Below are positions 10,172 to 20,423 of a stretch of DNA of 64,000 nt, piece after piece. The notes under the pieces are model-generated. The model saw nothing but the letters and a program-made list of their open reading frames with translations, did not search any database and was not told where the DNA came from. Origin of the DNA: Leptolyngbya sp. FACHB-261 (GTDB taxonomy: Bacteria; Cyanobacteriota; Cyanobacteriia; FACHB-261); assembly GCF_014696065.1 (NCBI RefSeq), contig NZ_JACJPL010000031.1:310001-374000 (forward strand). Direction: 5' to 3'. Positions within the stretch are counted from its first letter, which is position 1. Each line of letters begins with the position of its first letter. Made by a program: the position numbers and the translations under genes.

Positions 10172-11140
10172 CTACGAGTTTCCTTTGCGCTTCAGGCGAT
10201 TAATCTCATCCTGCAATTCCTGAATCTGGCGCTGAAGTTCAGCCGCTTCACTCGGAGCTGGGGGCGTGGAATTGATGTCAATGGTTGAGTCTTCGCCCCG
10301 AACGTAATTGCCAGACTTGATGTTGTAATACTCAGAAGACAGAGACCACTCGCGCAAATAATGCACTCGATCCACTGGAAAGGGATGGCTCAGAATCGCG
10401 CCTTGCCCACCGTTATAAAGCAAAAACTTATAGACCTGATTTAAGCCGTCACTGTCGAGCTGCTGAAACTGCTCAGACTGTTTAATGAACTCCTCCAAAC
10501 TGCACTCATGGCCAAATTGGTGACAGCCACCCGAGAACTTCATCATTGAGCTGACCACGACATTGAGATCATCGAGTGCCAGTAGGGCCGCTCGGTCACA
10601 GGAGAGTTCTGCTTTACGCTTCCATTCATGAAAGGCGTAAATGAGCCCGGTACCCACTACGTTACCAATACCAAAGGTGAGTTCGCCGATGGTCGTAATT
10701 GCGCCCATCACCCACATTGCCATCTGAATCAAGATCGTATGGCCACACTTAATGTGGCCAAGTTCATGCGCAAGAACGGACCGAATCTCGTCCTCGTTCA
10801 TCAAATCCAGTAGACCAGAATTAATGACGATATAAGGCCGTTCCTGTCCTAGTGAGTAGGCATTAGCAATTGGGTTTTGGGTGGCAAACAGGATGGGTTC
10901 TGGATGCACATCTAGATCGCGAACACACTCACGAAAAATGCGATAGAGCGTTGCATACTGTCGTGGGCCAACTTGAATGCTATTACCAGAGTGATAAATC
11001 AGCTGTGGGCGTTCATAAATAAACTCGACAAACTTGCGAGCCACCAAGTTAAAGCCCGGTAGATTGCGCAACGCTAGTTCCGCTTGCGCATCGAGAGGGT
11101 GTCTGAAGGCTTCGCTAGAAAGGCCAGGGTAGGTAGGCAT
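10172..11140 (-). CDS. M48 family zinc metalloprotease
   Basis: Start chosen at ATG 11140 (MPTYPGLSSEAF), which has GAAGGA six bases upstream; the open frame extends nine codons further to 11167. The peptidase M48 signature VLAHELGHIKCGH gives zinc ligands His125 and His129 with catalytic Glu126, and KAELSCDRAAL supplies the third ligand Glu. A hydrophobic segment (MAMWVMGAITTIGELTFGIG) follows the HExxH helix, as in HtpX-like enzymes. The C-terminal ~30 residues (AAELQRQIQELQDEINRLK) form a short coiled coil, unusual for HtpX and possibly a partner-binding tail. At 322 aa the length is normal for the family. The gene is divergent from the metallophosphoesterase. A role in membrane protein quality control is inferred. 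Confidence 0.9.
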   Translation of the reverse strand: MPTYPGLSSEAFRHPLDAQAELALRNLPGFNLVARKFVEFIYERPQLIYHSGNSIQVGPRQYATLYRIFRECVRDLDVHPEPILFATQNPIANAYSLGQERPYIVINSGLLDLMNEDEIRSVLAHELGHIKCGHTILIQMAMWVMGAITTIGELTFGIGNVVGTGLIYAFHEWKRKAELSCDRAALLALDDLNVVVSSMMKFSGGCHQFGHECSLEEFIKQSEQFQQLDSDGLNQVYKFLLYNGGQGAILSHPFPVDRVHYLREWSLSSEYYNIKSGNYVRGEDSTIDINSTPPAPSEAAELQRQIQELQDEINRLKRKGNS

Positions 11141-11454
11141 CGCAATTCCTTCACGCTCTGCCCTCACATTCTCGCTAGATTTTTTGATTTTGGGTACCGG
11201 CCAAGACCTTGAGCCCTCTGAGATGAGGCAAATCAGGTTTTGCGCAGCAACAAGGCCTCAAGTCCCCAAGCGCCTTTTGCCCTCCAGAGCTGCAGGCAAC
11301 CCAGGCCTAAATCACAGGGATAAGGCTACATCACCAACAAACGATAGATGCCAGGACAATCGATCGCCGCTAGGATCAACGTGCTACACCTGGTTTGCCC
11401 CAGTGCGCCGACTGCCTATTCCGGCCTCCTACGCCGATCCCTGGAGCATTACTC
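11141..11454. other. Divergent intergenic region
   Basis: About 314 bases between two divergently transcribed genes (M48 protease and metallophosphoesterase), so it should hold both promoters. I could not assign -35/-10 boxes with confidence and see no gene. Confidence 0.5.
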
Positions 11455-13029
11455 ATGGAGCTTGTTACCGATCCACCCATTTCCGTCAAGATCCGCAAAA
11501 TGAAAGAGCGGGTGCGATGGCAAGAGCCAGAAATGGTTAAACGGGGCATCGATCAGACTCGCATGGTCCTGGACGATGGTCAGCAGGACAATCCAGACTT
11601 CTCTTTTATTGTTTTAGGGGATAGTGGTTCGGGGTCCTATCGAGGTTATAATCCCCAGCGCCGAGTCGCTGAACTCATGCTGGAACAGCGGGACGGCTGT
11701 CGGTTTGTGCTACACACCGGCGATGTCATTTATTTCGTCGGCTCAAGCGAGTTTTACCCCAAAAACTTTATCGAGCCCTATCGGGAATTTCTAGTAGGTG
11801 GCGAAAATCACGAGCGCATTGCCTATGACCAAATGGTTTTCAACTTGCCTATTTTGCCCGTCTTAGGCAACCACGATTATTACGATCTGCCGCTGCTCTA
11901 CGGCCTGCTGGCTCAAGGCACCCGACCCCTGCGTCGCTTGCTTCGATCCAAGATTGATTTTGATATTGGCTTGCATGGCTCGCATCAAGGCGATGCCTAC
12001 GCCCGGGCCTTTCTGGATTACCTCAAAGCGCTGCCCAATCCCGCTGATTTAAGCGCTCACCTCGATCAGCATTACACAGCCAAAACCGAGACTGGTTTCT
12101 GTCTGCGTTATGAACCGGGGCAATTCACTCGCCTGCCCAACCGTTACTACAGCTTCCGCTACGGCGGCATCGATTTCTTTGCCTTAGATTCCAATACGTT
12201 CAATGCACCGCTACCTTTGCCAGCGACCCGAGAGGGTGACGCTTACCGGCACACGCTCGAACAGCGACGAGCTGAACAAGCGCAAAAGAAACAGGAACTC
12301 ATGAATGCTGGCATGAGCCTCAGCTCCAACCCGCCGGAACAAGTAGAAGAACACGACGACTTGCGCACCAAGATTGAGCAAATTGACGAGGTAATCCACG
12401 ACATCGATCAGCAATTAGCCGCTAATGAAACAACGGTCACGGATACTGAGCAGTTGAAGTGGCTGCAACAAGGGCTAATCAAATCCTGGAACACTTCCGA
12501 GGTGCGTGGGCGGATCATCTATTTCCACCATCCTCCCTATGTCACTGAGGCATCTAAGTGGCATCAGGCCCAAACCCTCGCCATTCGCCACCGCTTGCGT
12601 CAAGTTCTGGACAACGTTGCCAAGGCCGTCGGCGCTCAGGCTCAGGACCGCCCGCTGGTCGATCTGATCTTGAATGGTCATGCCCACTGTCTGGATTATG
12701 TTCGGACTCTGGACACGGGTCATGCTGATGCCAACTTAAACTGGATTGTCTGCGGTGGCAGTGGCTTCAGTCTCCGTCGCCAACGCACGGAAGGGCCGGA
12801 ACTCATTGAGGGGGTTGGGGGTCTTGGAAGTAGCCAAACTCGCCTAGTGGCAAAGTCTCTGCTCTACGTTGGCCGCAATGGCCACGGCTATCAGAAGCGA
12901 CGCCCCTACTCCTTCTTGCGCATTGATGTTCAAGATGGGCGACCGCCCAAATTCACAGTGCGGCCCTTTGCAGCGGAGCGAACCCAAAGACAGTGGCAAA
13001 CCCAAGCAATCAAGCCGTTTGTAATTTGA
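11455..13029 (+). CDS. Calcineurin-like metallophosphoesterase
   Basis: Start chosen at ATG 11455 (MELVTDPP), which has GGAG nine bases upstream; the open frame runs 20 codons further 5'. The 524-aa product has the full metallophosphoesterase motif set: VLGDSGSGS (Asp56), HTGDVIYF (Asp90), LGNHDYYD (Asn139, His140), YFHHPPYV, and NGHAHCLDY near the C-terminus. A charged insertion with predicted coiled coil (about 270-325, rich in Glu, Gln and Lys) lies between the third and fourth motifs and is longer than in typical members. No signal peptide is seen. The substrate cannot be told. It lies 49 bases before the diacylglycerol-kinase-like gene on the same strand and may share its transcript. Confidence 0.88.
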   Translation: MELVTDPPISVKIRKMKERVRWQEPEMVKRGIDQTRMVLDDGQQDNPDFSFIVLGDSGSGSYRGYNPQRRVAELMLEQRDGCRFVLHTGDVIYFVGSSEFYPKNFIEPYREFLVGGENHERIAYDQMVFNLPILPVLGNHDYYDLPLLYGLLAQGTRPLRRLLRSKIDFDIGLHGSHQGDAYARAFLDYLKALPNPADLSAHLDQHYTAKTETGFCLRYEPGQFTRLPNRYYSFRYGGIDFFALDSNTFNAPLPLPATREGDAYRHTLEQRRAEQAQKKQELMNAGMSLSSNPPEQVEEHDDLRTKIEQIDEVIHDIDQQLAANETTVTDTEQLKWLQQGLIKSWNTSEVRGRIIYFHHPPYVTEASKWHQAQTLAIRHRLRQVLDNVAKAVGAQAQDRPLVDLILNGHAHCLDYVRTLDTGHADANLNWIVCGGSGFSLRRQRTEGPELIEGVGGLGSSQTRLVAKSLLYVGRNGHGYQKRRPYSFLRIDVQDGRPPKFTVRPFAAERTQRQWQTQAIKPFVI

Positions 13030-13078
13030 GGGTGCAGACCAGTTACTCTGCTCTAAATCTGAACTCAAGGAGGGCAAG

Positions 13079-14047
13079 GTGGATACACTTTTAATCGTCA
13101 ACCCAACCTCTGGACCTAATGACCAAGCCAGTTTGCTACGCGATATTATCAAAGCTCTCCAAGACCAAAACATTCGGGCTGAGGTTAGCCTAACCACCCC
13201 GGATTCTGATGGGCAAGCTCTGGCTGCTGAGGCCGCGCAAGCAGGAACTAAATTGGTGATTGCGGCGGGTGGCGATGGCACTATCGAAGCAGTAGCTCGG
13301 GGTTTAATTCACACCTCAACGGCCCTAGGTATTATCCCTCTGGGAACCCGGAATAACATTGCGGCCAGTTTGAGTATCCCCAACAACTTAGAGCAAGCCG
13401 CTCGAATTTTGGTAGAAGGGGAAAGCTGCCAAATTGATGTGGGCAAAGCGAACGATCACTACTTTCTAGAAGTGGTTGGTATAGGCCTTGAGGCAGTTCT
13501 CTTTCCCTGTGGCGATGAAGTCAAAGAAGCGGTCAAGAAAAATCGTCTGGCTCTACTCAGGAGTGTGTTGAGTGGCCTCAAGATCTTTTCAGAGTTCCGG
13601 TCTCACCGCTTAGTCCTACGGCTCAATGGTCGACGCCTGCTACGGCTACGCACTCTTCAGGTCAACATCTGCAATAGTCCGCGCTATGGTATGGAATTTG
13701 CCTTAGCTCCTAATGCCAAAATGGACGACGGCAAGCTGGACGTAATCTACCTTGACAACGCTTCCAAATGGGAGCATCTTCAGCACTTTTTCACTGCCAT
13801 GCGCGGTCAGCCTCTATCCCGCGAACAACTCCGAACTTATCAGGCTGCCAGAATCGAAGTTAGAAGCTACCATCCCCTAAAAGTCCACGCCGATGGTGAC
13901 TGTATAGGCAATACTCCACTCACAGTTGAGGTTGTACCCAAAGCTCTCCGGGTGCGCGTCCCGACCCCTGAGTTACTGACAAAATTTGCCGAAGAGGAAG
14001 GTCAGAGCAGCATTCCAGCCCTTAGCGAGCTGCCTGGAGGGGCATAA
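13079..14047 (+). CDS. Diacylglycerol kinase-like lipid kinase
   Basis: Starts at GTG 13079 with a perfect AGGAGG five bases upstream. The 322-aa protein has the DAGK catalytic fold signature: the N-terminal phosphate-binding IVNPTSG, the GGDGT nucleotide loop at residues 64-68, and GIIPLGTRNNIAASLSIP. The YegS/DgkB-like C-terminal domain contains VHADGD. Such enzymes phosphorylate diacylglycerol or related lipids with ATP at the inner membrane face. Length matches the family. The downstream SPFH/zinc-ribbon genes also look membrane-related, so a lipid or envelope theme is possible for this stretch. Confidence 0.9.
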   Translation: MDTLLIVNPTSGPNDQASLLRDIIKALQDQNIRAEVSLTTPDSDGQALAAEAAQAGTKLVIAAGGDGTIEAVARGLIHTSTALGIIPLGTRNNIAASLSIPNNLEQAARILVEGESCQIDVGKANDHYFLEVVGIGLEAVLFPCGDEVKEAVKKNRLALLRSVLSGLKIFSEFRSHRLVLRLNGRRLLRLRTLQVNICNSPRYGMEFALAPNAKMDDGKLDVIYLDNASKWEHLQHFFTAMRGQPLSREQLRTYQAARIEVRSYHPLKVHADGDCIGNTPLTVEVVPKALRVRVPTPELLTKFAEEEGQSSIPALSELPGGA

Positions 14048-14131
14048 AACAGTCTCCGCTTCCGAGGAATCACGGTGCGGCAAGCCGAGGCTCTAAGTTA
14101 GCTTAGACTCATCTCAAACTGGAGGCGAGTC

Positions 14132-15235
14132 GTGGGCATCATCGACAAGATTAGATGCGAGTTTGTTGACATCATCGAATGGTTGGACCCCACCAACGAT
14201 ACGATGGCTTACCGCTTCGAGCGCTTCCAGAACGAGATCAAAAGGGGCTCCAAATTGACGGTACGGCCTGGTCAAATGGCCGTGCTTGTTAATGAAGGTC
14301 GCATTGCCGATGTTTTTGCGCCAGGGCTTTACCCACTCAGCACTCAAAACTTACCAATTCTCAGTACTCTGATGGGTTGGAGCTATGGCTTCAACTCGCC
14401 CTTTAAAGCTGAGGTTTACTTCTTTAGCACCCGCACATTTACAAACTTGAAATGGGGAACCTCTAACCCCGTTATCGTGCGCGACCCAGAGCTAGGGCCG
14501 GTACGTCTGCGTGGCTACGGTACCTATGGGGTGCGAGTGGCTAAGCCAGAAGAGTTTTTGCAACAACTAATCGCTACCGATGGCCTATTTCAGGTCAATG
14601 AAATCAGTGGTCAAATTCGCAACTTGATTGTGACCCAGGTTGCCACCTGGCTTGGACGGTCTAACATTCCCCTGCTAGACTTTGCCGCGCACTACAGCGA
14701 CATGGGAGAGACGATTCGAGCAGGTATTCAGCCTGAATTGGATCGCTTCGGCCTAGAAGTCACCCAGTTGTTAATCGAGAACATTTCACTACCCGCAGAA
14801 GTCGAAGCTGCTTTAGACAAGCGCACCTCAATGGGCTTGCTAGGAGACTTGCAGCAGTACGCACAGTTCCAGGCAGCCAATGCTATTGAAACCGCAGCCA
14901 AAAATCCTGGAGGCGGTAACTCCCCGCTAGAATTCGGGGTGGGCCTCGCCATGGGACAGCAGATGGTGGCGGCCATGCAACCGAAAGCACTGCAGCCCCT
15001 CCAACCAGTTTCACAACCTCAAGCCGCACCGCCTCCGCCTGTGCCCTCCACTCAGTGGTACTTGTCGCGAGACGGGCAAAACTTCGGTCCCTTTGCGGCT
15101 GATCAACTGCTGGCTCAAGGCTTGACGGCTCAGTCCTATATCTGGCGAGCAGGGCAAGACGGCTGGAAGCGAGCAATAGAGCTCCCAGAACTAGCCTCGC
15201 TGTTGGCAGCAGTGCCGCCTTCCCCGCAGAGCTAA
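14132..15235 (+). CDS. SPFH-domain protein with C-terminal GYF_2 domain
   Basis: Starts at GTG 14132, with GGAGG six bases upstream. Residues about 25-240 match the SPFH/'virion core protein' group (COG4260, e.g. Bacillus YdjI): an IIEWLDPTNDTMAYRF N-terminus, then LTVRPGQMAVLVNEG and VFAPGLYPLSTQNLP. A Gly/Gln/Pro-rich linker (about 265-308) leads to a GYF_2 domain (about 309-357; WYLSRDGQNFGPF and SYIWRAGQDGWKRA), a fold that usually binds proline-rich peptides. No transmembrane segment is present, so membrane association would be peripheral. The next gene, 16 bases on, encodes a zinc-ribbon membrane protein, a pairing like ydjI/ydjG in Bacillus. Domain calls are confident; the envelope-stress role is inference. 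Confidence 0.88.
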   Translation: MGIIDKIRCEFVDIIEWLDPTNDTMAYRFERFQNEIKRGSKLTVRPGQMAVLVNEGRIADVFAPGLYPLSTQNLPILSTLMGWSYGFNSPFKAEVYFFSTRTFTNLKWGTSNPVIVRDPELGPVRLRGYGTYGVRVAKPEEFLQQLIATDGLFQVNEISGQIRNLIVTQVATWLGRSNIPLLDFAAHYSDMGETIRAGIQPELDRFGLEVTQLLIENISLPAEVEAALDKRTSMGLLGDLQQYAQFQAANAIETAAKNPGGGNSPLEFGVGLAMGQQMVAAMQPKALQPLQPVSQPQAAPPPPVPSTQWYLSRDGQNFGPFAADQLLAQGLTAQSYIWRAGQDGWKRAIELPELASLLAAVPPSPQS

Positions 15236-15251
15236 ACGCCACAGGCTCACT

Positions 15252-16400
15252 ATGGACCCGTCAAAACTTGTCAACCGCTTTCCCTGTCCAGGTTGCGGTG
15301 CGGATTTGGAATTTCAACCCAAAATTGGGCGGCTCCAATGCCCTTACTGTGGGCGCGAGGAGCAAATTCAGCACGGCAATCAGGCAGTCGAAGAACACCC
15401 CTACAGCCAAGCCCTTAACTCACTGACGGGCCAAACCTCTCTATTATCCAGCCAAGCTTTAGAAGTCGCCTGCTCTGACTGTGGGGCCAGCATCACGTTT
15501 GAACCGCCTGAAGTGGCAGGCAAATGTCCCTTTTGCGCAGCCAATATTGTCACGCAACCCAAGTCAGCTCACCCGGTTTTAACCCCTGGAGGAGTCCTAC
15601 CTTTTGCAATGCAAAAACAAGAGGCACGCACTAATATTCAGCAGTGGCTAGGCAATCGTTGGTTCGCCCCCAACAGCCTCAACAAAATAGCCCAGCAGGA
15701 AGAACTTTCTGGCGTCTATTTGCCCTTTTGGACCTACGATTGTCAAGCCATCAGTGATTACCGGGGGGAGCGAGGCGAACACTATTATGTCACCGAAACC
15801 TACACAGAAATTGAGGATGGCAAGAGCGTCACCAAAACACGTCAAGTCCAGAAAACTCGCTGGCATCCAGCCTCTGGCAGGGTATCTCGGTTATTTGATG
15901 ATGTCTTAGTTGCTGCTACCCAAGTTGTAAACAAGAAGCGATTAGATGCGTTAGAGCCTTGGGATTTGTCAGCCTTGTGTCCTTACCAGCCCTCTTACCT
16001 AGCAGGTTTCAAAGCTCAACGTTACCAAGTCAAATTAGACGAGGGCTTTGAGGTCGCCAAGCAATGGATGACTTCGGTCATCCATCAAGATGTCTGTCGC
16101 AATATCGGTGGCGATGAGCAGCGAGTGCATCACATTGCCACTACGCACCGAAACACCACGTTTAAACACATCTTGCTACCAATTTGGATCTCGGCCTATC
16201 GCTTCAACAACCAGCAATATCAAGTACTGGTTAATGCCCGCACAGGCGAAGTATTGGGCGACCGCCCCTATAGCGCTTGGAAAATTCTCAGCTTCGCCCT
16301 TCTCTGTACTGCTGTATTGGCAGGAGTGCTGTGGCTCCTGAATCCTCAGCAGCAAAACGACCTACCTTTGCCTGTCCCGCCTTCGGACCAGCCTCCTTAG
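15252..16400 (+). CDS. Double zinc-ribbon membrane protein (YdjG-like)
   Basis: The 382-aa protein begins with two rubredoxin/TFIIB-like zinc ribbons: Cys12, Cys15, Cys30, Cys33 (CPGCG and CPYCG) and Cys74, Cys77, Cys92, Cys95 (CSDCG and CPFCA). A ~220-residue middle domain contains YLPFWTYDCQAISDY, a conserved type in such proteins, and a single transmembrane helix lies near the C-terminus (about 348-366, ILSFALLCTAVLAGVLWLL) followed by a short Pro-rich tail. Annotation pipelines often mislabel relatives as PriA-like because of the ribbons; no helicase motif is present. It follows the SPFH gene by 16 bases, so co-expression is likely. An adaptor between membrane and SPFH scaffold is inferred. 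Confidence 0.82.
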   Translation: MDPSKLVNRFPCPGCGADLEFQPKIGRLQCPYCGREEQIQHGNQAVEEHPYSQALNSLTGQTSLLSSQALEVACSDCGASITFEPPEVAGKCPFCAANIVTQPKSAHPVLTPGGVLPFAMQKQEARTNIQQWLGNRWFAPNSLNKIAQQEELSGVYLPFWTYDCQAISDYRGERGEHYYVTETYTEIEDGKSVTKTRQVQKTRWHPASGRVSRLFDDVLVAATQVVNKKRLDALEPWDLSALCPYQPSYLAGFKAQRYQVKLDEGFEVAKQWMTSVIHQDVCRNIGGDEQRVHHIATTHRNTTFKHILLPIWISAYRFNNQQYQVLVNARTGEVLGDRPYSAWKILSFALLCTAVLAGVLWLLNPQQQNDLPLPVPPSDQPP

Positions 16401-16411
16401 ACTACCAATTC

Positions 16412-16470
16412 ATACAGTTTGTATTAGTACAGTTCTATGTTACACCGGAGGAGTAGAAAATACAGTTCTA
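16412..16470 (+). promoter_or_regulatory. Repeated TACAGTT sites upstream of the dioxygenase gene
   Basis: The gap before the LigB-type gene contains an inverted repeat ATACAGTTTGTAT (16412-16424) and two exact copies of TACAGTTCTA (16428-16437 and 16461-16470), 33 bases apart start to start. This spacing of similar sites just upstream of a gene resembles an operator cluster. The regulator is unknown. Confidence 0.4.
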
Positions 16471-16489
16471 GACAGCTCTAGGAGGTCAC

Positions 16490-17320
16490 ATGCTTGAGGC
16501 TCAGCATCAGCTGGTAGTCGGCTCTCCTGACCTGGTTGGGACTACCTTCCCCAGCCTGTTCGTTTCCCACGGAGCCCCCAACTTGGTGTTTGAAGATGCT
16601 CCTGCCCACCATTTTCTTAAGCAGTTGGGCACTCAAGTTGGGCGCCCCAGTGCGATCTTGGTGATTTCAGCCCACTGGGCCACAGCCTGTCCTACCGTGA
16701 GTGCTGCATCCCAGCCAGAGACCATTCACGATTTTTCTGCCTTTACCCCGGAGCTTTATCAGTTGCGATACCCAGCAGCTGGTGCGCCAGATCTAGCTGA
16801 GCGGGTAGTGAACTTGCTGGTCACGAGCGGCATTGAAGCTGAATTAGACCCCAGCCGTGGTTTAGACCATGGCGCCTGGAACCCTCTGCTCCTGATGTAT
16901 CCAGATGCCGAGATTCCAGTAACGCAACTGTCGCTTCAGCCTCGCTTAGGTCCTGCACATCACCTCGCAATCGGACAAGCTTTAGCGCCTCTACGTCACG
17001 AAGGGGTGCTGATGCTGGCCAGTGGCAGCCTCACCCATAACCTCTGGGAGCTAGAAGCCAACCGCTCCAATGCTCAAGCTCCAGTTTGGGCCAGCGAGTT
17101 CGTTGACTGGATCACCGCCGCTGCAACTGATCACAAGCTTGAGCAACTCCTCAACTACCGGCAACTCGCGCCCCATGCAGAACGCAACCATCCCACCGAA
17201 GAGCACTTACTACCCCTGTTTGTGGCCATCGGCGCAGGCAACTTAGGAGTCAAAACCCGGCTTCTCCATTCCAGCTTTACCTATGGCAGCCTCAGCATGG
17301 CCGCCTATGCCTTTGCTTGA
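16490..17320 (+). CDS. LigB-family extradiol dioxygenase (YgiD/DODA-like)
   Basis: Starts at ATG 16490 with AGGAGG four bases upstream. The 276-aa product matches class III extradiol ring-cleavage dioxygenases of the 4,5-DOPA dioxygenase (YgiD) type: FVSHGAPN (His27), VISAHWAT (His62), the RGLDHGAWNPL motif, SGSLTHNLW, and HAERNHPTEEHLLPL near the end. The conserved histidines are the expected metal ligands (zinc or iron). Members open catechol rings such as DOPA; the natural substrate here cannot be told. It stands alone between the zinc-ribbon gene and glyS, with its own upstream repeats, so independent regulation is likely. Confidence 0.9.
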   Translation: MLEAQHQLVVGSPDLVGTTFPSLFVSHGAPNLVFEDAPAHHFLKQLGTQVGRPSAILVISAHWATACPTVSAASQPETIHDFSAFTPELYQLRYPAAGAPDLAERVVNLLVTSGIEAELDPSRGLDHGAWNPLLLMYPDAEIPVTQLSLQPRLGPAHHLAIGQALAPLRHEGVLMLASGSLTHNLWELEANRSNAQAPVWASEFVDWITAAATDHKLEQLLNYRQLAPHAERNHPTEEHLLPLFVAIGAGNLGVKTRLLHSSFTYGSLSMAAYAFA

Positions 17321-17409
17321 TTCGGGTTATCTAACGTTTAGCCAAAAGCTGGACCTTCAACAGACCAACTCCGCTGATAAACTGAGGGAGTTTACGTTTC
17401 GGGGATCTT

Positions 17410-19542
17410 ATGGCAACGTTTCTGCTGGAAGTGGGCACCGAGGAACTGCCAGCCAGTTTTGTCAGTGAGGCCCTCGTCCAGTGGCAAGAGCGCATTCCCC
17501 GCTCTCTCAAGGAGGCCTTTCTAGAATCTGCTCAGGTTTCGGTATACGGCACGCCTCGTCGTCTGGCAGTTCTGATCTCCGGACTACCAGCGCAACAGCC
17601 CGACCGCGAGGAGGAAGCCAAAGGCCCAGCGGTGCAAGCCGCCTTCAGAGAAGGTGTGCCGACCAAAGCCGCTGAAGGTTTTGCCCGTAGCAAAGGGGCA
17701 AGCCCCAGTGACCTCTATGCAAAGAACACAAACAAAGGCGAATTTGTCTTTCTGCGCATCAAAACCCCAGGTCGTCCCACCGCTGAGGTACTTAAGGACC
17801 TAGCTCCTGGCTGGATCACGGGCCTAGAGGGCAAGCGCCTGATGCGTTGGGGCAACGGCGATCTTAAATTTCCTCGTCCGATTCGCTGGTTGGTCGCCCT
17901 GCTCGATACCCAGGCCTTACCCCTCAGTATTGGTGGGGTAGATGCGGGACGCTTGAGCCGAGGCCACCGCGTTCTCTGCCCGAGTGAAACAGTCGAAATT
18001 GCCAGCGCCGATACCTACCTAGCCACCTTAGAAGCTGCCTTTGTGCTGGCCGATCCTCAGGAGCGTAGCCGTCGCATCCAAGCACAGCTACAGAGTGCAG
18101 CTGTCAGGACTGGTAGTGAAGTCGAAGTGCTGCCCGATCTGCTGGCAGAAGTGGTGCATCTGGTCGAGTGGCCAACTGCAATTGTGGGGCAGTTCGAGCC
18201 GGAATTCTTGGAACTACCAGCGCCTGTAATCAAGACCGAAATGGTCAGTCACCAGCGCTACTTCCCCTTGCACGATGCAGGCAAGCCCGAGGCAATAAAA
18301 CCGAGCTTTATCACGATTTCCAATGGCGACCCCGCTAAGGCCGATATCATCGCGGAAGGCAATGCGCGGGTGATTCGCGCTCGGCTCTCTGATGGCCGCT
18401 TCTTCTACACCGAAGACCGTCAGCAACCCCTGGAAAGCTATGCGCCTCGCCTGAGCAAAGTTACCTTCCAGGAAGATCTCGGTTCAGTCGCGGACAAAGT
18501 CGAGCGCATCGTTACTGTTGCCAGTTGGGTTGCCGAGCAGCTGAGTTGCTCTACAGAGGAACGCCATCTGATTGAACGCACGGCCCGACTTTGCAAGGCT
18601 GATCTAGTCACCCAAATGGTGGGTGAATTCCCTGAGCTTCAGGGCATTATGGGCAGCGATTACGCTCGGAACACTGAACCAGAAGCGGTAGCAACAGGCA
18701 TCTTTGAGCATTACTTGCCGCGCGGTGCTGAAGACGCTCTACCACAGAGTCTGACCGGGCGAGTAGTGGGTATTGCCGATCGGCTGGATACCCTAGTCGG
18801 TATTTTCGGCTTGAGCATGTTGCCGACTGGCTCCTCCGATCCCTTTGCCTTGCGGCGAGCTGCTAACGGCATTCTCAACGTGGTTTGGAACGCAAATTAT
18901 GCCCTGAACTTGGGCCAGCTTCTAGACCAGGCGGTTGCTCGATTTACGCCGGTCAAATCCACCCCAGAAGTTCTGCGCCGACAACTGACTGACTTTTTCA
19001 GCCAGCGCATTCGCACCCTACTTCAGGATGAGCAGGACATTGATTATGACTTGGTCAATGCTGTTTTGGGCGAAGGCGATGCTGAATATATTGCTCGGGC
19101 TTTGGCCGATTTATTAGATGTGCGCAAGCGGGCTCAGTTTCTCCAATCAACCCGTCAAGACGGTACTTTGGAGCGACTCTACGAAAGCGTCAATCGAGTT
19201 GCTCGACTGGCTACTCAGGGTTCCCTGCCCACCGACGTTCTCGATCCGGCTCAAGTCGTAGACCCCAGCCTATTTCAACAGCCCTCCGAGCAGGCCTTGT
19301 ACGAAGCGGCTGTCCGTTTAGCGGAGCGGGCTACTACAGCGCGTCAAAGCCGAGACTATGGCCTGTTAGTACAAGCCTTAGCTGAAGCAGCCCCAGCCGT
19401 GAGCCAATTTTTTGACGGACCGCAAAGCGTTTTAGTCATGGACCCAGACCCTAAGCTCAAGCAGAATCGTTTGAACTTGCTGGGAGTTCTGCGCAACAAC
19501 GCTCGGTTGCTAGCTGACTTTGGTCCAATCGTTAAGCCCTAG
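17410..19542 (+). CDS. glyS: Glycyl-tRNA synthetase beta subunit
   Basis: The 710-aa protein starts at ATG 17410 (MATFLLEVGTEELPASF, the hallmark N-terminus of bacterial GlyS). It has the expected internal blocks: RPIRWLVALLD, ETVEIASADTYL, a VVHLVEWPTAIVGQF segment, KTEMVSHQRYFPL, and the HD-like/anticodon-binding half with PFALRRAANGI and AEYIARALADLLDVRKRAQFL. In alpha2beta2 GlyRS the beta subunit provides tRNA recognition while GlyQ provides the active site; glyQ is not in the window, as is common in cyanobacteria. Length is normal and there is no sign of damage. A terminator hairpin follows. Confidence 0.97.
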   Translation: MATFLLEVGTEELPASFVSEALVQWQERIPRSLKEAFLESAQVSVYGTPRRLAVLISGLPAQQPDREEEAKGPAVQAAFREGVPTKAAEGFARSKGASPSDLYAKNTNKGEFVFLRIKTPGRPTAEVLKDLAPGWITGLEGKRLMRWGNGDLKFPRPIRWLVALLDTQALPLSIGGVDAGRLSRGHRVLCPSETVEIASADTYLATLEAAFVLADPQERSRRIQAQLQSAAVRTGSEVEVLPDLLAEVVHLVEWPTAIVGQFEPEFLELPAPVIKTEMVSHQRYFPLHDAGKPEAIKPSFITISNGDPAKADIIAEGNARVIRARLSDGRFFYTEDRQQPLESYAPRLSKVTFQEDLGSVADKVERIVTVASWVAEQLSCSTEERHLIERTARLCKADLVTQMVGEFPELQGIMGSDYARNTEPEAVATGIFEHYLPRGAEDALPQSLTGRVVGIADRLDTLVGIFGLSMLPTGSSDPFALRRAANGILNVVWNANYALNLGQLLDQAVARFTPVKSTPEVLRRQLTDFFSQRIRTLLQDEQDIDYDLVNAVLGEGDAEYIARALADLLDVRKRAQFLQSTRQDGTLERLYESVNRVARLATQGSLPTDVLDPAQVVDPSLFQQPSEQALYEAAVRLAERATTARQSRDYGLLVQALAEAAPAVSQFFDGPQSVLVMDPDPKLKQNRLNLLGVLRNNARLLADFGPIVKP

Positions 19543-19597
19543 GCTCTTTAGCAAGCCTTAGCTAGCCCTTTAGCGGATTGAACTCTAGATAAACTAT

Positions 19598-19635
19598 GCA
19601 GCCCCTAGGAAAACCTAAGGGCTGCAAGTTTTATA
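19598..19635. terminator. Bidirectional-looking terminator after glyS
   Basis: A 12-bp stem with one mismatch (19598-19609 with 19614-19625) and an AAAA loop is followed on the plus strand by AAGTTTTATA. It lies between convergent glyS and the PEP-CTERM gene and may stop transcripts from both sides, more strongly on the plus strand. Confidence 0.7.
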
Positions 19636-19643
19636 CGAGGCGT

Positions 19644-20423
19644 TTATTCAACGTTGAAACGCTCAACGCGACCACCGGCAGTCCGACGGCGTAAGGCCAT
19701 CGCACCGGCTACTGCAACTGCACCTAGAGCAGCAGTCATGCCAGGTTCAGGAACTGACTCAGTTTCAGCCGACTTAGCTTCTACTGTGACTTTGAAGTCG
19801 TTGTAGTCTACCAGGGCTTGTCCAACCTTTAGAGGCTGCGTTCCCTTGTTCTTCTTAGTTACGGTGTCCTCAAAGCCAACCGCTGCAGAACTAGCGAAGG
19901 GATCAGCGCTAGAACTACCCACAACAGTACCCTTAGCTGGCTCAGCGTTCAGGTCATTGCTGAAGTAGACCTGGGTGCCAAACAGACCCTTATTGAGCGC
20001 AGTGGTTGAGTAGACAGTCGGCCGGACAATATTACCCGAGAGAGACTGTAGACCAAAGGTATAGTTCACGCCTTTAAGGAACGTGAACGAGTTGCTGCAG
20101 GTGAGGACCGTCTTGCCGCAGGTGCCAATCCAATCATTCGCGCTGCCGCTGTCGCTTGGCTTGACTTCCTCGAACAACTTCGTGAAAGTCCCTACCTCGC
20201 CATCCGTATCGACTTCATACACACCGAAGGTCGATTGGAATTTACCGTGCGACTCAACGAAGTTGAAGGTGCCAATCGTATCCTTGTCGAAGCGGATGCC
20301 ATCGGTACCGAAGTCAAAGGTACCGGCTTGGGCTGGCGAAGCAACGGCTGCTGTTGCCGCCATCGCAGCGAAGGCCATGAAGCCGTGGGTGAGGCGCTGC
20401 TGAGTTAGTGAAGAGGTGCTCAT
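19644..20423 (-). CDS. PEP-CTERM secreted protein
   Basis: Start chosen at ATG 20423 (MSTSSLTQQRL). From there a good Sec signal peptide follows (MAFAAMAATAAVASPAQA, cut before GTF); the frame itself is open to a GTG at 20474. The C-terminus carries a PEP-CTERM sorting signal: SVPEPG, a hydrophobic helix (MTAALGAVAVAGAMAL) and a basic cluster RRRTAGGR. By family knowledge such proteins are processed by an exosortase and placed at the cell surface or in exopolymer. The ~200-residue mature domain is beta-rich, with two Cys (GTCGKTVLTC) that may form a disulfide, and its fold is not recognised. No exosortase gene is in the window. Confidence 0.87.
   Translation of the reverse strand: MSTSSLTQQRLTHGFMAFAAMAATAAVASPAQAGTFDFGTDGIRFDKDTIGTFNFVESHGKFQSTFGVYEVDTDGEVGTFTKLFEEVKPSDSGSANDWIGTCGKTVLTCSNSFTFLKGVNYTFGLQSLSGNIVRPTVYSTTALNKGLFGTQVYFSNDLNAEPAKGTVVGSSSADPFASSAAVGFEDTVTKKNKGTQPLKVGQALVDYNDFKVTVEAKSAETESVPEPGMTAALGAVAVAGAMALRRRTAGGRVERFNVE

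Follow-up and report, generated by a model that had tools for sequence, protein, structure and literature searches.

In Bacillus subtilis, the pspA operon is described (PMC11237479) as encoding, besides PspA, a band-7 protein with a zinc ribbon, YdjG and the TPM protein YdjH; the same source gives YdjG two zinc ribbons together with a domain related to YpeB and a transmembrane (TM) segment. PspA foci require YdjI in this organism (PMC8581546), and two-hybrid results placed YdjH between YdjG on one side and YdjI and PspA on the other (PMC8581546, Scholz et al.). The window, a 64,000-nucleotide stretch of the genome of Leptolyngbya sp. FACHB-261 (contig NZ_JACJPL010000031.1, positions 310,001 to 374,000), holds two neighbouring genes that resemble part of this system. 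The first codes for an SPFH protein of the Band_7_1 type that ends in a GYF_2 domain, the second for a membrane protein that carries two zinc ribbons (ZnR protein). Sequence comparison showed that the pairing is conserved and that each gene is homologous to a counterpart in Bacillota. The two genes are thus a real, conserved module. That it works as a membrane scaffold of the YdjI/YdjG kind, an anchored SPFH scaffold with direct contact to the ZnR protein and possibly a clasp made by GYF_2, has in our estimate about an even chance of being correct.

The pairing was followed in 145 related cyanobacterial genomes, a strong Band_7_1 gene being defined by more than 250 bits. Such a gene was present in 21 genomes and a ZnR gene likewise in 21; in the 20 genomes with both, the genes were adjacent on the same strand, SPFH first (Fisher p = 2e-22, a value that ignores shared ancestry). 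The neighbourhood of the two genes is more than chance. The one genome with SPFH alone (G084) has this gene at the edge of a contig. The one with ZnR alone (G017) holds a decayed remnant of the pair (L066, 11690-12350), the opening part of the SPFH gene being fused to the end part of the ZnR gene. A stop codon is present in this ZnR part as well, and the arrangement looks like a single deletion of the middle of the module; the draft assembly is fragmented, so the remnant may be a misassembly or artefact. A divergent Band_7_1 protein with a SHOCT-like end and without a ZnR partner was seen in the small cyanobacterial genome G025 (L065, 7467-8483), which gave no PspA match either.

Beyond the cyanobacteria, a scan of contigs across many phyla, which is not a census, kept at least 80 ZnR loci. 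Among the matches listed, 61 of 80 loci had an SPFH gene upstream on the same strand (five of them cut by a contig end) and 19 did not, and the record titles of the linked pairs named Cyanobacteriota, Armatimonadota, Kiritimatiellota, Bacteroidota, Planctomycetota, Pseudomonadota, Actinomycetota and Delongbacteria. All loci examined together contained 82 pairs with strong matches to both proteins, and in 65 of them the genes are no more than 250 bases apart (median 35). Fifteen of the 19 unlinked loci were tested for an SPFH gene at a distance, omitting the loci L112, L143, L153 and L162, which start at or near a contig end; 14 of these 15 genomes have a Band_7_1 gene (above 240 bits) at another location. 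On plasmids, all 12 ZnR-bearing records were also among the 22 SPFH-bearing records. Viral carriage of ZnR was rejected: the pattern matches in viral contigs (5 and 115) included no confirmed relative. Individual loci showed peculiarities. The cyanobacterial ZnR proteins of L054, L055, L061 and L063 extend by about 110 residues past the TM helix into a helical-looking conserved domain, which had no Pfam match and is missing from the ZnR protein of the window. The SPFH protein of an actinobacterial record (L100, Enemella evansiae) groups inside the Rhodobacterales on the tree, a case of transfer or contamination.

For the comparison with Bacillota, an SPFH-ZnR-TPM operon of Enterococcus gallinarum (L078) and the related contig L084 served as stand-ins for the B. 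subtilis proteins; their own proteins are YdjI-like and YdjG-like by architecture. Profile alignment with hhalign joined the ZnR protein to the YdjG-like protein at 100% probability (E 1e-39, 338 columns) and the SPFH protein to the YdjI-like protein at 98.9% probability (E 4e-17, 267 columns). Judged by these profiles, the pair belongs to the YdjI/YdjG kind and is a variant of a known system. Common to both systems is a soluble Band_7_1 SPFH protein whose neighbour is a TM protein bearing two zinc ribbons. They differ in that the SPFH protein of the window ends in GYF_2 where YdjI has a C-terminal zinc ribbon, and in that neither a ydjH (TPM) nor a pspA gene accompanies the two genes. Three TPM genes are present elsewhere in the source genome, none beside the pair, and among the loci examined a TPM neighbour occurred only in Enterococcus. 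The contig L084 (1-8925; OR846934.1), labelled as a Listeria phage, carries dnaX-, recR-, tmk- and holB-like genes (recognised by eye) beside its SPFH-ZnR pair and, by these genes, looks like a bacterial chromosome rather than a phage. An earlier note on this DNA had proposed a possible reduced YdjGHI-like envelope module, in which a GYF_2 domain had been added to the SPFH protein. The layout it described was confirmed, and neither outcome that it had named as refuting, a lack of profile kinship (here tested on the Enterococcus-type stand-ins) or of conserved adjacency in other cyanobacteria, came about. The words reduced and added mislead, since the dyad with GYF_2 occurs in at least seven phyla and GYF_2 occupies the place of the YdjI zinc ribbon. 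The note's further suggestion, that the GYF_2 fusion stands in for a missing adaptor, may hold for YdjH.

The features of the locus are compiled in Table 1. Conservation was assessed in two alignments hand-picked for spread, one of the window SPFH protein with 31 others (32 rows) and one of the window ZnR protein with 41 of the at least 80 ZnR proteins from the contig scan (42 rows). Both domains of the SPFH protein pass their curated cut-offs (24 bits for Band_7_1, PF13421; 25.8 bits for GYF_2, PF14237), and residues G319, P320, W338 and W345 of GYF_2 are invariant in 32/32 rows. No 19-residue segment of the protein exceeds a hydropathy of 0.92, thus a TM segment is not predicted. The protein is single-copy in the source genome of 6.95 Mb, according to a genome search, and its GYF_2 domain was the sole one found there. 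Between the SPFH stop and the ZnR start lie 16 bases. The ZnR protein matched no Pfam or NCBIfam family above cut-off; residues 317-337 weakly matched PepSY/YPEB (E 0.0095), in agreement with the YpeB remark made on YdjG in PMC11237479.

Table 1. Coordinates and properties of the SPFH-GYF_2 and ZnR genes, their parts and the upstream neighbour in the window
Feature	Position	Strand	Property
SPFH (Band_7_1)-GYF_2 protein, YdjI-like putative scaffold subunit, 367 residues, no TM segment	14132..15235	+	
Band_7_1 (SPFH) domain, residues 27-235	14210..14836	+	Pfam 301.4 bits; fold matches stomatin, prohibitin, HflK/C
Proline-rich linker 5' of GYF_2, residues 300-305 (PPPPVP)	15029..15046	+	P301, P302 invariant in 32/32 rows
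GYF_2 domain, residues 309-354	15056..15193	+	Pfam 49.9 bits
Proline-containing C-terminal tail, residues 362-367 (PPSPQS)	15215..15232	+	P362, P363 invariant in 32/32 rows
Double zinc-ribbon (ZnR) single-pass membrane protein, YdjG-like probable anchor, 382 residues	15252..16400	+	
ZnR zinc ribbon 1, cysteines 12, 15, 30, 33	15285..15350	+	invariant in 42/42 rows
ZnR zinc ribbon 2, cysteines 74, 77, 92, 95	15471..15536	+	invariant in 42/42 rows
ZnR middle domain, residues about 107-340, long beta strands	15570..16271	+	model pLDDT mostly >90
ZnR single TM helix, residues 345-363	16284..16340	+	mean hydropathy 2.49; helix 342-363 in model
YegS/BmrU-type lipid kinase, upstream neighbour, judged outside the module	13079..14047	+	DAGK_cat 110.8 bits, YegS_C 89.8 bits

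The structure model of the ZnR protein was confident (mean predicted local distance difference test (pLDDT) score 90.7, predicted template modelling score 0.83) and showed, in this order along the chain, both zinc ribbons, a middle region that includes three strands of at least 30 residues, and the TM helix. Foldseek found nothing in the PDB at E <= 0.001 for this model, and a second structural comparison gave no chain with Z >= 5. The best Foldseek match of the whole-protein model had an E value of 0.021 at a probability of 0.20, and weak matches to pore-forming proteins (probability about 0.2) were not taken as meaningful. By sequence, the best solved chain reached only E 0.14. The middle domain thus matched neither a curated Pfam family nor a solved fold, which is no proof of a new fold, because this domain was compared only within the whole-protein model. 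The model of the SPFH protein was middling (pLDDT 73) and matched the folds of stomatin, prohibitin, HflK/C and flotillin. The SPFH fold is common to these proteins and the window protein, which differs from them in having no membrane segment of its own and Band_7_1 as its best Pfam family. Its sole match below E 0.01 among solved chains was a GYF-containing gliding-motility chain (7z3c, E 0.0017).

The C-terminus of the related SPFH proteins is a swappable module: GYF_2, two GYF_2 domains, zinc ribbons, SHOCT or HTH_17. An association of SHOCT with band-7 proteins is already reported in PMC3581485; for SPFH-GYF_2 proteins no paper was found in the open-access literature searched. On a quick tree of 64 SPFH domain rows (42 loci, mostly near-duplicates, were left out by a hand list), four C-terminal states need seven changes, and the GYF rows form one group of 46 out of 48, with Tsukamurella and Bacteroides left out of it; the deep branching order is uncertain because of long branches. 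A related but separate module on a Novosphingobium plasmid (L076, 6001-12759) combines an SPFH-SHOCT protein with two DUF4178 proteins and polyamine-synthesis genes. It shares with the window a Band_7_1 protein with a small swappable C-terminal module and differs in its partner, DUF4178 instead of the ZnR protein (17 bits to the ZnR profile), and in its separate SPFH clade.

The GYF_2 domain is accompanied by proline segments on both sides. Counts were restricted to full-length open reading frames, one per identical last 150 residues. Among the GYF-bearing SPFH proteins, 87/88 had a PPP motif in the linker and 85/88 a proline tail, whereas among the GYF-less SPFH proteins both the poly-proline linker and the tail were found in 0/16. 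None of six GYF_2 proteins outside the SPFH family had such a tail (six of seven candidates, L208 being omitted). GYF domains are readers of proline ligands. We tentatively propose, as a possibility rather than an expectation, that the SPFH-GYF_2 protein is a self-clasping scaffold: GYF_2, flanked by the protein's own proline ligands, would cross-link subunits and be opened by proline-rich clients, while the ZnR protein would anchor the assembly without YdjH or PspA. The alternative, that GYF_2 is an outward-facing adaptor which recruits a separate proline-rich client, its own proline segments being spacers or weak autoinhibitors, also draws on the proline-reading capacity of GYF domains. The exchange of GYF_2 for a zinc ribbon, SHOCT or a helix-turn-helix domain is what would be seen for a targeting module, and the nearest solved chain is the GYF-containing gliding protein. 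However, a conserved proline-rich neighbour was not present beside the cyanobacterial pair, and the proline segments flank GYF_2 in nearly all members. We regard the adaptor as a doubtful but serious candidate.

In the proposed scaffold, the soluble SPFH protein would form a ring- or cage-like assembly on the cytoplasmic side of a membrane, anchored there by the single-pass YdjG-like protein, whose zinc ribbons would lie in the cytoplasm. Since the pair lacks an adjacent gene for YdjH (TPM), the two proteins are probably in direct contact. The most speculative step is the clasp, in which the GYF_2 domain of each subunit might bind the proline linker or tail of its neighbour and so close the assembly from outside; a proline-rich client or a stress signal could compete with it. 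We do not assume that this client is PspA/Vipp1. The scaffold reading follows from the cyanobacterial pairing, which has no clean exception, from the upstream SPFH gene at most listed ZnR loci and the Band_7_1 genes elsewhere in nearly all unlinked ones tested, and from the homology to YdjI/YdjG-like proteins. It further draws on the single TM helix in ZnR and none in SPFH, on the likeness of the SPFH fold to the oligomeric stomatin, prohibitin and HflK/C, on the proline segments that come and go with GYF_2, and on the genes added to the pair in proteobacterial operons.

These additional genes were found upstream of the pair in Rhodobacterales and some Gammaproteobacteria and code for an XpaC-like protein (PF10112), TelA and a DUF2927 protein. 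Among the matches listed, the neighbour clusters comprised 35 loci for XpaC-like, 27 for TelA and 32 for DUF2927. The SPFH-GYF_2 and ZnR genes have the identical order in these operons, which differ by the extra upstream genes, not found by the cyanobacterial pair. Examples are L083 and many of L101-L164 (Rhodobacterales, Granulosicoccus); in some Rhodobacterales a cytochrome b561 gene lies between the SPFH and ZnR genes. In Listeria, TelA and XpaC are tied to nisin and tellurite tolerance in PMC12791056. This gives the pair only an indirect link to envelope stress. The likely role of the scaffold would then be to organise or protect membrane patches under envelope stress, in analogy to YdjGHI and the proteobacterial TelA/XpaC operons.

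Several observations weigh against this reading. One unlinked genome (G145) has a ZnR gene without any SPFH gene, and the Band_7_1 protein of another (G148) belongs to a different SPFH clade. The direct contact of SPFH and ZnR proteins is a guess, as it is YdjH, not YdjG, that contacts YdjI according to PMC8581546. The stress role in cyanobacteria is assigned by analogy: TelA was found over cut-off in 0/145 cyanobacterial genomes and was rejected as a partner there. For the clasp, the coupling of GYF_2 with proline segments amounts to only one to three independent contrasts on the tree, so it is not claimed as independent statistical evidence; the Fisher p, too, takes no account of ancestry. 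Just 31 of the 88 tails, nearly all proteobacterial, end in PPG plus alanine or a hydrophobic residue, an end that resembles the ligand type of eukaryotic GYF domains. The tail of the window protein (VPPSPQS) exemplifies the poly-proline tail of the family only weakly.

On the view of the earlier note, the pair would bring PspA/Vipp1 to membranes under stress in the manner of B. subtilis YdjGHI. The homology to YdjI/YdjG-like proteins favours this view, as do two tandem PspA/Vipp1 genes in the source genome, on another contig than the pair, and the presence of PspA in 20 of the 21 genomes with a strong SPFH gene. Yet a local link did not emerge: no PspA homologue adjoined the pair in the loci examined. 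Searched in 59 cyanobacterial genomes, PspA/Vipp1 was found in 56, regardless of the pair, which was present in 12 plus one remnant; with PspA near-universal and the pair patchy, their overlap says little. In the genome G048, a 99% complete draft in 20 contigs, the pair is present but PspA gave no match. This single draft genome argues weakly against an obligate link and may reflect an assembly gap, since its six searched sister genomes all have PspA. A PspA/Vipp1 role for the pair is neither shown nor excluded, and we consider recruitment unlikely to be its function.

Far less probable is that the ZnR protein acts as a membrane-tethered regulator, with TFIIB-like ribbons binding nucleic acid and the SPFH protein sequestering it. 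DNA binding was suggested for YdjG in PMC9239133, and the ribbons of the window protein gave weak TFIIB-type matches; these stayed below curated cut-offs and were scattered over many unrelated ribbon families, and in the model a confident beta domain comes after the ribbons. The note had also mentioned the lipid kinase gene, which lies on the same strand and ends 84 bases upstream of the SPFH gene; as a third component supplying a phosphorylated lipid for recognition by the SPFH scaffold it was rejected and is next to negligible, because no homologue (E 1e-3) stood beside the pair in any other locus examined.

Around the genes, an Rfam search of positions 11000-20000 yielded no regulatory RNA match, and promoter and terminator scans gave no more signals than shuffled sequence. 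PADLOC left the kinase and SPFH genes unmatched and reported only weak ribbon matches for ZnR (best E 0.002), thus membership in a defence system was rejected. Three copies of TACAGTT at 16413-16467, between the ZnR gene and a LigB-type dioxygenase gene (16490), are possibly a regulator site of the latter.

If the scaffold reading is true, the core of YdjGHI would be a widespread two-gene SPFH/zinc-ribbon scaffold and not an accessory of PspA. PspA and TPM in Bacillota, and XpaC-like, TelA and DUF2927 proteins in Proteobacteria, would then be lineage-specific additions, and roles of YdjI and YdjG independent of PspA would become testable. Self-clasping would present a bacterial use of GYF recognition in the assembly of membrane microdomains and a candidate way of locking SPFH assemblies without a client; with it, a single-pass protein of the YdjG type could hold the scaffold at the membrane in the absence of YdjH and PspA. 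Cyanobacteria would gain a type of SPFH protein in addition to the five that PMC9950537 lists for Synechocystis.

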